A stretch of DNA of 64,000 nucleotides from Herbiconiux ginsengi. Its GTDB lineage: Bacteria; Actinomycetota; Actinomycetes; Actinomycetales; Microbacteriaceae. Location: positions 434,001 through 498,000 of the forward strand of contig NZ_FNPZ01000002.1 in the NCBI RefSeq assembly GCF_900107435.1, read 5' to 3'. A program made the position numbers and the translations under genes. The notes below the pieces were generated by a model. It did no database searches and was not told the DNA's origin. It was given only the letters and a program-made list of their open reading frames with translations. This document shows positions 32,313-62,012 of this stretch, piece after piece (position 1 is the stretch's first letter; each line of letters starts with the position of its first letter).

Positions 32313-32385
32313 GCCCCCATAGCTCAGGGGATAGAGCGTCTGCCTCCGGAGCAGAAGGCCGTAGGTTCAAATCCTACTGGGGGCA
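32313..32385 (+). tRNA. tRNA-Arg (anticodon CCG)
   Basis: 73-base cloverleaf: acceptor stem GCCCCCA (32313-32319) with TGGGGGC (32378-32384) and discriminator A. The D arm is AGCTC..GAGC; the anticodon stem is TCTGC/GCAGA around loop CTCCGGA, so the anticodon is CCG reading CGG. The T arm contains GGTTCAAATCC. CCA is not encoded. Confidence 0.97.
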
Positions 32386-45545: not shown

Positions 45546-46066
45546 GCAGGCAACGCTACCGGATGCGCGGCCGTCGCAACTGTCCCCTGCGCGGCGAAGG
45601 CCTCGTGGGGCAATGCTCCCTGCGCATGACCATTCCGTTGCGGTGTGTGCCCATGCGCCTTGGAGCCTCGGAAGCCTGCTGCTCCTCGGGCGTGTTCATG
45701 CGCGGCCCGGATGCCGATGTGGTGAACGTGTCCCGTGCGCTGATCTGGGTGGCCCGCCACCCGCCGCCCGCCGCGGTCTACCCATCGGCAAGCGCGGGTG
45801 GGGTACGGCCCGGATGCCGGTGTGGCGAACGTGCCCCGCAGGCAGAATTGCGCGGCCGCCCGCCCGCTCGCACGTGGGGTGGGCGCTTGCGACGCCCCGA
45901 GGTCTACCCATCGGCGGGGTGGGTGGGGGTGTGGTGGTGTGTTGGCGTCCGTGGGGGCTGCGCCAGTTGAGGTGGCGGGGCTTGTCGGGGTGGGGTTGGA
46001 CGGTCCAGCGGGACTCGTGTTTCAGGTGGTGGTGGCGGGGGCAGGTGCACCGCCCGACCCCGAGGT
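45546..46066 (-). pseudogene. Array of decayed 3' ends of a DUF222/HNH gene
   Basis: This 521-base gene-free stretch holds broken copies of the 3' end of the adjacent HNH gene. About 45897-46047 repeats 46060-46211 with an offset of 163-164 bases; read on the minus strand it still encodes HHHLKHESRWTVQPHP and LNWRSPHGRQHTT in place of HHHLKHNTRWTVESDP and the identical tail of the intact protein. A third stop-codon region (GATGGGTAGACC) recurs near 45779. A separate unit, starting GCCCGGATGCCG, occurs at about 45706 and 45808. No intact frame remains. Confidence 0.7.
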
Positions 46067-46211
46067 CTACCCGTCGGCGGGGGCGCCTGGTGGTGCGGTG
46101 GTGTGTTGGCGTCCGTGGGGGCTGCGCCAGTTGAGGTGGCGGGGCCTGTCGGGGTCGGATTCGACGGTCCAGCGGGTGTTGTGTTTGAGGTGGTGGTGCC
46201 GGGAGCAGAGG
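45897..46211. repeat. 164-base tandem duplication of the HNH gene 3' end
   Basis: Two units, 45897-46060 and 46060-46211 onward, share about 110 bases of high identity (45935-46047 against 46099-46211) plus a shared segment containing GAGGTCTACCC. The second unit is the last part of the intact HNH gene including its stop codon; the first is a diverged copy lying downstream of it. Confidence 0.8.
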
Positions 46212-51145: not shown

Positions 51146-52471
51146 ATGAGCGACAACGCTGCGAACTGGAAGTTCGAGACCAAGCAGATCCACACCGGCG
51201 CCCAGCCCGACCCGGTGACCAACGCCCGCGCGACGCCGATCTACCAGACCACGTCGTATGTGTTCAACAACTCGCAGCACGCGCAGAACCTGTTCGCGCT
51301 GGCCGAGTTCGGCAACATCTACACGCGCATCCAGAACCCCACGCAGAACGTGGTCGAAGAGCGCGTCGCGGCACTCGAAGGCGGAACAGCAGCGCTGCTG
51401 GTCGCCTCCGGCCAGGCCGCGGAGACCTTCGCCGTGCTGAACATCGCGCAGGCCGGCGACCACATCGTGTCGTCGTCGTCGATCTACGGCGGCACCTACA
51501 ACCTGTTCAAGTACACCCTGGCGAAGCTCGGAATCGAGACCACCTTCGTGGAGAACCAGGACGACGCCGACGAGTGGCGCCGCGCGGTCCGCCCCAACAC
51601 GAAGCTGTTCTTCGGCGAGACCATCGGCAACCCGAAGATCAACATCCTCGACATCCAGCTCGTGGCAGACGTCGCGCACGAGAACGGCGTGCCGCTGATC
51701 GTCGACAACACCATCGCGACGCCCTACCTCATCCGCCCCTTCGAGCACGGCGCCGACATCGTGGTGCACTCGGCGACGAAGTTCCTCGGCGGCCACGGCA
51801 CCGTCATCGGCGGCATCATCGTCGACGGCGGAAAGTTCGAGTGGTCGAAGAACGTCGAGAAGTTCCCCGGCCTCACCGAGCCCGACCCCTCGTACCACGG
51901 CGCGAGCTACACCGGCGTGCTGGGCGACGGCATCGCCTACATCATCAAGGCGCGCGTGCAGCTGCTGCGCGACCTGGGCTCGTCGATCGCGCCGGCCAGC
52001 GCCTGGCAGCTCATCCAGGGCATCGAGACGCTCTCGCTGCGTGTCGAGCGCCACGTGCAGAACGCCCAGGAGATCGCCGAGTGGCTGGATGCCCACGACG
52101 ACATCGCCACGGTCTACTACGCGGGGCTCCCGTCGAGCCCCTGGTACGCGGCCGCCAACAAATACGCCCCCAAGGGCGTCGGCGCCGTGCTCTCGTTCGA
52201 GCTGAAGGGCGGTGTGGATGCGGGCCGCACCTTCGTCGACAGCCTCAGCCTGTTCAGTCACCTGGCCAACATCGGCGACGTGCGCTCGCTCGTCATCCAC
52301 CCGGCGTCGACCACGCACTCGCAGCTCACCCCCGAGCAGCAGCTGACCGCGGGCGTGACGCCCGGCCTGGTGCGCCTCTCCGTGGGCCTGGAGAACATCG
52401 ACGACCTCAAGGCCGACCTCGAGGCCGGCCTCGCGGCGGCCCGTGAGACGGTGCGGGCGAACGCGCTCTAG
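51146..52471 (+). CDS. metY: O-acetylhomoserine/O-acetylserine sulfhydrylase
   Basis: PLP enzyme making homocysteine from O-acetylhomoserine and sulfide. 441 residues, usual length for the OAH/OAS sulfhydrylase family. The PLP lysine is in [18 protein letters not shown], with [23 protein letters not shown] and the C-terminal [20 protein letters not shown]. It lies upstream of metX, which supplies its substrate, so the two form the direct sulfhydrylation route to methionine. A 309-base spacer with a terminator and a repeat element separates them. Confidence 0.95.
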
Positions 52472-52478
52472 CTGAACA

Positions 52479-52538
52479 CCGAATCGCCAAAACACGCCGC
52501 TACGAAGAGTCTGGTAGCGGCGTGTTTTGGCGTCTCGG
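52479..52538 (+). terminator. Perfect 19-pair palindrome after metY
   Basis: Arms 52485-52503 and 52514-52532 are perfectly complementary (CGCCAAAACACGCCGCTAC) around a 10-base loop, and CCGA/TCGG extend the stem after two mismatches. It starts about a dozen bases after the metY stop. The A-run on the left arm and T-run on the right arm would allow termination in either direction. Confidence 0.7.
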
Positions 52539-52551
52539 CGACCAAACACTG

Positions 52552-52705
52552 GGGAAACGAGATCGAAAGCCGCGGGCCGCGCTGAGACGACCCAGGGTGA
52601 CGGCGAGGCCGCGTCAGCGACCTCACCGGAACATGTCGCCTCGCGCCGCAGAAGCGGCGGCGCGAGCAAAGAGCGACGCGCGACCGCAGGCCGCGCCTCG
52701 CGGGA
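52552..52705 (+). repeat. Modular palindromic repeat element, copy 1
   Basis: Lies between metY and metX. Block 1 (52552-52600) and block 2 (52629-52677) recur near 61.9 kb on the other strand. Block 2 contains a 10-pair hairpin (52640-52649 with 52657-52666) with loop AGAAGCG. A further hairpin follows (GCGCG, loop ACCGCAGGC, CGCGC). The conserved frame through it is probably incidental. The rest of the 52472-52780 gap holds the metY palindrome and presumably the metX promoter; no other gene is seen. Confidence 0.75.
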
Positions 52706-52780
52706 AGCGGCGAGGCAGCACCCAGCGGCCTTCGTAACAATTCACGGCTGCGTGGTTCGGCAGGCCAGAATCGTAGAGAC

Positions 52781-53986
52781 ATGGACTGGCAGACGAACGA
52801 AGACACCGTACCCAGTGGGTTCATCACCGAAGCGCAGATTCGGTCGGTGCTGGGCAAACCGCCCGCATCGGGGGCCTGGCGGGAGGGCGACCCCGTGGGG
52901 CGCCGTCGGTTCGCGAACATCGGGGACTTCGCGTTCGAGAACGGCGGCTCGGTGCCGCACACCCACATCGCCTACGAGACGTACGGCACACTCTCGCCGG
53001 CGCGGGACAACGCGATCCTGGTGCTGCACGCGCTCACGGGCGACAGCAACCTGAACCACCCGGCCGAGCCCGGTCATCCGACCGACGGCTGGTGGCCCGG
53101 TCTCGTGGGCCCCGGCCTGCCGATCGACACCGACCGCTGGTTCGTGGTGGCCCCCAACATGCTGGGCAGCTGCCAAGGAAGCACGGGCCCCTCCTCGATG
53201 GCGCCCGACGGCGCCGAATGGGCGGCCCGCTTCCCTTACACCACCATCTCCGACCAAGTGCGGGCCCAGCACGGCCTCGCTGACGCGCTCGGCATCGACC
53301 GCTGGTTCGCCGTGGTCGGCGGCTCGATGGGCGGGATGCAGGTGCTCGAGTGGGGCGCCCGCTATCCCGACGAGGTGGCCCGGATGGCCGTGATCGCGGC
53401 GCCCGCCACCAGTTCGGCCGACCAGATCGCGTTGAACTCGGTGCAGATCCAGGCGATCCGCGCCGATCCGCTCTTCCACGGCGGCGACTACTATGACGCG
53501 CCCGACGGCGAGGGCCCACATCAGGGCCTCGCTCTGGCCCGCCGGATGGCGCTGCTCAACTACCGCAGCCCGTCGGAGCTCAACGACCGCTTCCAGCGAA
53601 GCTGGCAGAGCGGCATCAGCCCGCTCGGCGGTGGTGGCCGCTTCGCGGTGGAGTCGTATCTCGACTTCCACGGCAACAAGTTCACCCGCCGTTTCGACGC
53701 GAACAGCTACATCACCCTGGTCGAGGCGATGAACTCGCACGACATCGGGCGAGGACGCGCGGGCGTCATCCCGGCGCTCGAATCGATCACGGCTCAGACG
53801 CTCGTGATCGGCATCGACAGCGACCGGCTGTTCCCGGTGCCCGACCAGGAGCTGATCGCGCGGCATCTGCCGAACAACATCGACGGAGACGTTCCCGTGG
53901 TGATCGAGTCGAACTTCGGCCACGACGGATTCCTGATCGAATTCGACGCCGTGGGCCGAGAGATCTCGCGCCTGCTGACGCTCTGA
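52781..53986 (+). CDS. metX: Homoserine O-acetyltransferase
   Basis: Acetylates homoserine from acetyl-CoA, the committed step to methionine in actinobacteria. The 401-residue alpha/beta hydrolase-fold enzyme has the nucleophile serine in AVVGGSMGGMQVLEW, aspartate in IDSDRLFPVPDQ and histidine in SNFGHDGFLIE. HIAYETYGTLSPARDNAILV and HALTGDSNL are family motifs. Pairs with metY upstream. Confidence 0.95.
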   Translation: MDWQTNEDTVPSGFITEAQIRSVLGKPPASGAWREGDPVGRRRFANIGDFAFENGGSVPHTHIAYETYGTLSPARDNAILVLHALTGDSNLNHPAEPGHPTDGWWPGLVGPGLPIDTDRWFVVAPNMLGSCQGSTGPSSMAPDGAEWAARFPYTTISDQVRAQHGLADALGIDRWFAVVGGSMGGMQVLEWGARYPDEVARMAVIAAPATSSADQIALNSVQIQAIRADPLFHGGDYYDAPDGEGPHQGLALARRMALLNYRSPSELNDRFQRSWQSGISPLGGGGRFAVESYLDFHGNKFTRRFDANSYITLVEAMNSHDIGRGRAGVIPALESITAQTLVIGIDSDRLFPVPDQELIARHLPNNIDGDVPVVIESNFGHDGFLIEFDAVGREISRLLTL

Positions 53987-60740: not shown

Positions 60741-61823
60741 GTGCCCGCCTCTGCGCTCTTCGCCCCCCTCGACATCCGCTCGGTCACCGTTCGCAATCGC
60801 ATCTGGGTGGCGCCGATGTGCCAGTACTCCGCCGAGGATCGCGACGGCGTGCCGACGGACTGGCACCTCGTGCACCTCGGCTCGTTCGCCACGGGCGGCG
60901 CGGGGCTGGTGTTCACGGAGGCGACCGCGGTGAGTCCGGAGGGCCGGATCGCTCCGCAGGATCTCGGACTCTGGAACGACACGCAGCGCGACGCCTTCGT
61001 GCGCATCACCGCGTTCATCCGCTCGCAGGGTGCGGTTCCGGGCATCCAGCTCGCCCACGCCGGGCGGAAGGCGTCGACGTTCCGGCCGTGGGAGAGCCGA
61101 CGCGGTACCGTTCCGGCGACGGAGGGCGGGTGGCCTACCGTCGGGCCGTCGGCTCTCGCGTTCGGCGACTACGCCACGCCCCGGGCGCTGACGGTCGAGG
61201 AGATCCACGAGCTGGTCGCGGCGTTCGCGGCAGCCGCGCGCCGGGCCGTCGACGCCGGATTCGCGGTGCTCGAACTGCACGCGGCGCACGGCTACCTCCT
61301 GCACCAGTTCCTCTCGCCACTGTCGAACGTGCGCACCGACGAGTACGGCGGGTCGCTCCAGAACCGGGCGCGCTTCCTGCTCGAGACGGTGCGCGCGGTG
61401 CGGTCGGAGATCGGCGAAGACCTCCCGCTCTTCGTGCGGTTCTCGGCGACCGACTGGACCGAGGGCGGCTGGAACGAGGAGCAGACCGCCGTCGTGGCCG
61501 GATGGGCACGGGATGCGGGAGCCGACGTCTTCGACGTGTCGAGCGGCGGAAACGTGGCCGGTGCGCGCATCCCGCTGGGCCCGCTCTACCAGGTGCCCTT
61601 CGCCTCGGAGGTGAAGTCGCGGGCCGGCGTGCGCGTGTCGGCCGTGGGGCTGATCACGACACCCGAGGAGGCCGACGACGTCATCGCGAGCGGCCGGGCC
61701 GACGCGGTCATGATGGCGCGCGAACTCCTGCGCGACCCGCACTTCCCCCTGCGGGCCGCGCACGCGCTCGGCGTCGACATCGACTACTGGCCCCCGCAGT
61801 ACCTCCGCGCCCGTTGGCAGTAG
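60741..61823 (+). CDS. NADH:flavin oxidoreductase, Old Yellow Enzyme family (YqjM-like)
   Basis: A 360-residue FMN-dependent ene-reductase. YqjM-class features: regulatory cysteine in WVAPMCQYSAEDRDG, substrate-binding histidine pair in ELHAAHGYLLHQFLSPLSN, RTDEYGGSLQNRARFLLE and the FMN phosphate loop ending in ADAVMMARELLRDPHFPLRAA. Likely reduces activated alkenes with NAD(P)H; the physiological substrate is unknown. GTG start. Confidence 0.93.
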   Translation: MPASALFAPLDIRSVTVRNRIWVAPMCQYSAEDRDGVPTDWHLVHLGSFATGGAGLVFTEATAVSPEGRIAPQDLGLWNDTQRDAFVRITAFIRSQGAVPGIQLAHAGRKASTFRPWESRRGTVPATEGGWPTVGPSALAFGDYATPRALTVEEIHELVAAFAAAARRAVDAGFAVLELHAAHGYLLHQFLSPLSNVRTDEYGGSLQNRARFLLETVRAVRSEIGEDLPLFVRFSATDWTEGGWNEEQTAVVAGWARDAGADVFDVSSGGNVAGARIPLGPLYQVPFASEVKSRAGVRVSAVGLITTPEEADDVIASGRADAVMMARELLRDPHFPLRAAHALGVDIDYWPPQYLRARWQ

Positions 61824-61826
61824 GTT

Positions 61827-62012
61827 TCGCCCATTCCCGCGACCGGCCGGCCGAAGGCCGGTCGGTCGCTCGTTGCCGGCGCCGCCGCTTCTGCGGCGCC
61901 GGGCGACATGTTCGCGTGCGGTCGGAGGGCCCGGCCTGCGGTCGAGCCCTCCGGCCGCGCGCTCACCCTGGGTCGTCGAGCGCGGCCCGCGGCCTGCGAT
62001 CTCGTTTCCCAA
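61827..62012 (-). repeat. Modular palindromic repeat element, copy 2
   Basis: On the minus strand, block 1 (62010-61963) and block 2 (61913-61865) repeat those at 52.6 kb. Block 2 keeps the hairpin, loop AGAAGCG, with two adjacent base pairs changed on both sides. Between the blocks is a second hairpin (GGAGGGC with GCCCTCC) whose loop holds GACCGCAGGCC. A third palindrome, GACCGGCCGGCCGAAGGCC with its partner, lies at 61841-61867. Fills most of the 61824-62054 gap; no gene is seen there. Confidence 0.75.

Follow-up and report, generated by a model that had tools for sequence, protein, structure and literature searches.

Two copies of a dispersed structured element lie in the window, by which the whole 64,000-nt stretch of Herbiconiux ginsengi DNA that was analysed is meant. 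Copy 1 occupies the gap between metY (O-acetylhomoserine sulfhydrylase, 51146-52471) and metX (52781-53986), the neighbours that a sequence-only reading of this DNA had named for it, and both encoded proteins score above the curated cut-offs. Copy 2 lies between an old-yellow-enzyme-like gene, whose TAG stop (61821-61823) is covered by the first bases of the copy, and a convergently oriented gene whose match to a PaeA-type export family falls well short of the cut-off. The features of the two gaps are:

52479..52538, plus strand: separate inverted repeat outside the element, directly 3' of metY, 25 bp, terminator-like
52558..52722, minus strand (the structured strand): copy 1, covariance-model match of 152.9 bits
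52588..52638, minus strand: proposed P5 of copy 1, with 52588-52591 paired to 52635-52638 (4 bp) around P2 and the conserved internal loop (AUGUUC / UCACCCUGG)
52601..52628, minus strand: P2 of copy 1, a stem of 12 bp in which two U.G pairs are conserved
52640..52666, minus strand: P3 of copy 1, the hairpin of the sequence-only reading; its tip on the structured strand is GCGCCGCCGCTTCTGCGGCGC
52673..52701, minus strand: P4 of copy 1, the first hairpin on the structured strand, with one G.G mismatch and TCTTTG directly after it
61818..62004, plus strand (the structured strand): copy 2, covariance-model match of 139.3 bits, P2 extended
61839..61869, plus strand: P4 of copy 2, arm sequences mostly unlike those of copy 1
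61876..61902, plus strand: P3 of copy 2, CG/CG variant
61914..61962, plus strand: P2 of copy 2, extended form

The arms of the inverted repeat at 52479-52538 contain the 13-mer CCAAAACACGCCG, which is found as an inverted pair in locus L027 and singly in L026, L116 and L143; this structure may be a second dispersed hairpin. Elsewhere in the window, at 45703-46208, there are nearby direct repeats of 129, 62 and 34 nt (families D1, D4 and D3).

The sequence-only reading had described two conserved blocks of 49 bases each that recur in inverse orientation near 61.9 kb. The inverse recurrence was confirmed, while the block size proved approximate only: a repeat search returned the inverted pairs 52618-52677/61865-61924 (60 nt, 87%), 52552-52583/61979-62010 (32 nt, 94%) and 52586-52611/61952-61977 (26 nt, 88%). 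The hairpin placed in the second block, with the stem 52640-52649/52657-52666 and the loop AGAAGCG (52650-52656), is present exactly as claimed, and the T-A pair 52641:52665 and the C-G pair 52642:52664 are indeed replaced by C-G and G-C in the inverse copy. The noted hairpin is thus real, yet it is only one among several helices.

A BLAST search of the own genome with copy 1 gave at least 56 matches at E<=1, self included, among the 40 of 151 candidates that were scored. The 33 full-length sequences among 59 profile matches in the fetched loci, picked for completeness, were aligned (A1, A2) and used to build the covariance model R1, which has 166 positions and 39 pairs. With this model at least 75 matches at E<=0.01 were obtained in the own genome, among 150 scored of 11737 candidates. 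In view of these numbers the likeness of the two copies goes far beyond chance. Matches to the model occur in 14 of 16 Herbiconiux genomes, from at least one to at least 89 in each, the highest count being that of the relative G001, and two genomes have none. The covariance-model search that the sequence-only reading had proposed therefore yielded many more copies in the genome and in the genus, and neither of the outcomes named there as contrary was found: further copies exist, and changes in the stems are mostly compensated. The family is a non-coding multi-hairpin element of about 165 nt, dispersed in tens of copies through Herbiconiux genomes.

An exact pattern was found in 15 stretches of four assemblies when named genomes were searched, namely Herbiconiux solani, a Herbiconiux MAG, 'Corynebacterium-like bacterium B27' and 'Microbacteriaceae bacterium 3FA27C10'. 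A scan of 299 genomes of the family with the covariance model, nine candidates being scored per genome, returned six matching Herbiconiux genomes and six weak matches in other genera. The latter were not counted as copies, as a residue-by-residue reading showed that they share mainly the hairpin P3. A phage or plasmid origin found no support, blastn giving no match in phages or plasmids, and viral contigs held no match to one exact pattern from the element. The absence of a named family, which the earlier reading had also noted, agrees with Rfam: the only match at gathering score in the window is a tRNA at 32313-32385, and none falls on the element. At E<=5, six loci gave nine matches below gathering score, one of which (mir-486, E 0.15) lies inside a copy. 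No description of the element is contained in the literature found, in a coverage without preprints and most subscription papers.

On the structured strand the helices follow in the order leader, P4, P3, P2, whose foot carries a conserved internal loop, and P1. Folding of single copies is less telling than the copy number of the family. On the strand of the sequence-only reading, copy 1 folds with a z of -2.36 (equalled or surpassed by 4 of 200 shuffles) and copy 2 with a z of -4.79 (none of 200 as good). In the 33 full-length copies (A2), 99.1% of the 1278 pair cells are paired, compared with 86.7% in shuffles, and pairing falls to about 35% when the partners are slid by one column. Changes on both sides were observed at 15 of 39 pairs, in 133 cells, and P4 stands at 8 of 14 pairs so changed. 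Four of five covariation measures were reached by none of 500 shuffles; the fifth, further pair types, was not above shuffles on this alignment (reached by 122 of 500). In an alignment of 132 copies from two species (A5), which contains the 33 and was fitted to the structure, 97.8% of cells are paired, two-sided changes affect 24 of 39 pairs (772 cells), and none of 500 shuffles reaches any of the measures, further pair types included. The selection on structure that had been proposed from two adjacent compensatory changes is thereby borne out. Going by this preservation of pairs, the folded strand itself must matter. A protein-coding explanation was ruled out by the compensatory changes, the length-variable helices and the intergenic placement.

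The strand that folds is the opposite of the one assumed in the earlier reading, being the minus strand for copy 1 and the plus strand for copy 2. The RNAalifold consensus reaches -87.4 kcal/mol on the structured strand versus -62.7 kcal/mol on the other, and the four named helices comprise 1139 Watson-Crick, 128 G.U, 6 A.C and 5 other cells on the structured strand. What look like C.A mismatches on the strand first proposed are G.U pairs on its opposite, which identifies the structured strand; energy and G.U versus A.C together rule out the other. One U.G pair of P2 is present in all 33 copies. Since G.T pairs are favoured in single-stranded DNA too and leave the same mark, these wobble pairs do not prove RNA.

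The helix P5 is a proposal. In A2, 97.0% of its cells are paired, with four G.U and four A.C cells, and no pair is changed on both sides in either the 33-copy or the 132-copy alignment, so that it stands without covariation support. A second form of the element, type II, has another leader, another P4 and mostly another P3 loop, and keeps P2 and the internal loop. Its own alignment (A6, 33 rows picked by eye, of which at least two, L153 and L155, have the type I P3 loop) shows changes on both sides at 20 of 39 predicted pairs.

The position of the copies relative to genes was assessed with gene calls from a codon model trained on the window. Counted were 131 copies, 68 from the own genome (G000; 72 matches minus four partial or weak ones, L040:1575, L026:1671, L119 and L042 minus strand) and 63 from 40 fetched stretches of G001. 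They lie in 82 convergent, 44 tandem and 4 divergent gaps and at one locus edge, and 7 of 57 gaps in the window background are convergent. A smaller first set of 49 copies was distributed similarly (32 convergent, 11 sense, 6 antisense, none divergent). The sequence-only reading had allowed for an mRNA leader; as a rule this does not hold, 110 of the 131 copies instead following the 3' end of a sense gene, and in 97 of these the start lies between -45 and +60 nt relative to the stop codon of that gene. For 35 copies the match begins before the upstream sense gene has ended, and 31 of these include the entire stop codon. Copy 1 is one of 17 copies antisense to both neighbouring genes; the tandem gaps hold 27 sense copies against these 17, an excess that is not significant (p 0.17). 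An orientation of the element towards the gene is suggested: in convergent gaps with a single copy the 5' end is nearer to a stop in 23 of 29 cases (G000) and 13 of 18 (G001), a closeness that disappears (15 of 29 and 11 of 18) once the 3' side is credited with 25 nt for a hairpin that may stand there.

Copies at most 400 nt apart are arranged tail to tail in 20 of 21 pairs, and 13 of the 15 close pairs of G001 have a spacer of 116-128 nt. The G001 spacers hold another palindromic repeat with the core ACTCCGTCGTTTCG, seen in seven paired loci (L121, L123, L130, L137, L144, L145 and L148) and also beside single copies in L132 and L151. Between two facing copies, L100:1718-1972 contains about three units of some 80 nt that resemble the 3' end of the element from P1 onward. 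In G002, two inverse copies in the gap of copy 2 (L182:358-1508) flank a long stretch of repeated GAGAAGTCAC motifs, possibly yet another repeat family.

We consider it rather probable that the element is a high-copy, dispersed, non-autonomous palindromic repeat of the REP/BIME kind, which is mobilised, is kept or tolerated after stop codons and serves as a folded RNA block in the 3' part of mRNAs. Copies would spread through a mobilising activity, would be tolerated or kept just past stop codons and would then form the 3' end of the mRNA of the upstream gene, where they could act as folded RNA. P4, followed in some copies by a U-rich tail, may help to end transcription, and the stack of hairpins might shield the transcript from 3' exonucleases. 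A protein, be it the mobilising enzyme or an RNA-binding host factor, would recognise the folded strand, as the conserved internal loop, the near-invariant P3 tip and the fixed U.G pairs suggest.

An alternative that we regard as doubtful is that the structure is kept to serve mobility alone: a transposase or reverse transcriptase would act on the folded single strand, either DNA or an RNA template, and the placement after genes would reflect harmless insertion. Such a view is favoured by the tail-to-tail arrangement of 20 of 21 close neighbours and by the history of the sites. Where both genomes have a single copy at an orthologous site (15 sites), the orientation is reversed in 8 cases, which means that copies turn over, and the orthologous copy is the closest of the 63 G001 copies in just 5 of 17 comparisons (4 of 9 in the same orientation, 1 of 8 in the opposite one). 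Copies are gained and lost between species. Of 15 species, 9 have one or two copies in the metY-metX gap, with both orientations represented and with weak matches in G006 and G014, and 6 have none there; the gap of copy 2 has copies in 2 of 14 species, G001 holding a truncated remnant in inverse orientation; empty sites and the remnant likewise fit mobility. For 23 copies of G000 the flanks could be aligned to G001 loci, where 22 of the sites hold a copy and one does not, a ratio biased by the fact that the G001 loci were fetched for holding copies. Where orientation is shared, each comparison of two copies shows between 0 and 5 compensated pairs and between 0 and 3 broken ones; L032 and L134, 95% identical, differ by one compensated pair and no broken one.

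Against mobility as the only reason for the structure speaks the distribution of candidate enzymes. The Y1 transposase (PF01797) is absent from the own genome and present in one of 16 Herbiconiux genomes, one that has no copies, while the control search was positive in 5 of 14 genomes, E. coli among them. The reverse transcriptase domain RVT_1 was found in 3 of 16, two of them without copies. When set against copy number, these distributions leave both a Y1/RAYT transposase and a reverse transcriptase unsupported as drivers. Moreover, no target-site duplication was visible by eye at two filled/empty sites, the flanks of which have diverged. Many copies, fast turnover at orthologous gene ends and a genome without a Y1/RAYT transposase make the mobility of the element a puzzle in its own right.

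It appears unlikely that the family is in essence an intrinsic transcription terminator module for gene ends that was spread by recombination. Convergent placement (82 of 131) would suit a terminator, as would the single terminator-like match in copy 1 (shuffle mean 0.4) and the presence, in 59 of 132 copies, of at least four T among the 8 nt that follow P4, a feature never seen after P3 or P2; a termination role is thus possible for part of the family. The other 73 copies have no such tail, however, and copy 1 already sits behind another hairpin after metY. Termination at P4 would also leave the rest of the element untranscribed, yet conservation is higher in this rest, to which P3, P2 and the internal loop belong, none of them needed in a terminator; this argues against a termination step. 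Termination leaves unexplained the strong conservation of what lies downstream of P4, the AUGUUC/UCACCCUGG loop included, which suggests that a protein may recognise the folded strand. That the element is a regulatory RNA, ligand-binding or sRNA-like, with a tie to particular genes, for instance those of methionine metabolism, is highly improbable, for although the conserved unpaired loop could be a binding pocket, the metY-metX gap is without the element in 6 of 15 species, copies stand beside many other genes and mostly follow gene ends rather than precede genes, and Rfam gave no match for the element at gathering score in the window; the link to metY and metX is thus not a special one.

One known system close to the element is that of the REP sequences (GTAG and CGTC super-families) and BIMEs. 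As far as the available text describes them, REPs are palindromes of 20-40 bp with a GTAG or CGTC tag, mainly from gamma- and alpha-Proteobacteria, which lie in convergent or unidirectional gaps near gene ends, some copies supplying stop codons, and for which roles in mRNA stabilisation, termination and supercoiling have been proposed (PMC3733652). None of six actinobacterial terms is present in that text (PMC3733652). In its layout the Herbiconiux element resembles the REPs and BIMEs so described, as the sequence-only reading had suggested: it is present in high copy number, intergenic, found in convergent or unidirectional gaps near gene 3' ends (82 convergent and 44 tandem of 131), supplies the stop codon in some copies and forms inverted dimers. 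The inverted-pair and mosaic organisation of REPs, BIMEs and REPINs recurs as well, 20 of 21 close pairs being inverted and an extra repeat lying in the G001 spacers. The resemblance ends with size, tag and enzyme. The unit measures about 165 nt, with 166 model positions, 39 pairs and several helices, and only the P3 tip alone (21 nt) has the size of a REP. No GTAG or CGTC tag was seen beside the hairpins when A2 and A6 were read by eye; a CGTC string does occur inside GGGUCGUC, but its GUCG falls in proposed P5. In contrast to RAYT-mobilised REPs, there is no Y1 transposase in the own genome. By size, tag and RAYT the element is therefore not a member of the REPs, though by analogy it works like a REP/BIME, and it is longer, multi-helical and strand-specific.

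A REPIN consists of two inverted palindromic units and a spacer that behave as one unit. The close pairs of G001, 13 of 15 of which have a spacer of 116-128 nt, are similar in this respect, but the Herbiconiux units are much longer and solo copies are common. Another parallel is offered by bcr1 of the Bacillus cereus group (bcr1-bcr18), for which the accessible parts of two papers give a length of 147-167 and a conserved structure; a number of bcr families are predicted to act as functional RNAs, with expression, e.g. in UTRs, seen for about half of the copies, and bcr1-3 are described as MITE-like (PMC3446304, PMC2267715). Length and conserved structure are alike in bcr1 and the present element by these descriptions, whereas MITE-like bcr1-3 differ in that no duplication was seen here at the two sites examined. 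With the structured RNAs of Rfam 15 the element shares a covarying multi-helix structure, while at gathering score the window matched no family but a tRNA elsewhere.

As a rule, repeats dispersed in bacterial genomes are handled as simple palindromes. In this case one genome offers tens of natural variants that reveal the architecture, the strand and the fixed wobble pairs, so that the function of the fold becomes directly testable. It is conceivable, and offered tentatively, that the element represents a new class of mobile structured non-coding elements in Actinobacteria. It would be RNA or single-stranded DNA, multi-helical and strand-specific, would spread without a RAYT transposase, would have been built in Herbiconiux around a hairpin that many genera of Microbacteriaceae have, and would re-colonise the same gene ends time and again in either orientation.

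The hairpin P3 has a wider distribution than the element. Its tip, GCGCCGCCGCTNCTGCGGCGC, is found in 40 of 299 genomes of the family, from 20 of 85 genera with the own genus included, while the reversed control matched once in each of two of these 299 genomes. In a sample of 345 genomes of the class, the tip occurs in three, the own genome and two outside the family with one match each, and the control once in each of six; the control being the commoner, the tip is at chance level outside the family. Searches for P3 in other genera returned 25 loci with 26 hairpins, in which the sequence of the lower stem varies and, judged by eye, usually still pairs. A sense gene lies upstream of 19 of the 26, at no more than 40 nt in 11 cases, and two hairpins fall inside called genes. 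The motif TG[AT]G[CT]T is present within 28 nt upstream of 6 of the 26 and downstream of none, with a background of 1.2%; as the motif was picked after inspection of the sequences, a leader common to these hairpins and the type II copies was not adopted and is kept as a lead. Judging from these sequences, the Herbiconiux element may have been built around the P3 hairpin, and the tip provides a handle on what the fold is for in other genera of Microbacteriaceae. In three genomes of other genera, G024, G246 and G080 (L224), the P3 hairpin occurs in short tandem arrays with a spacing of about 70-74 nt.
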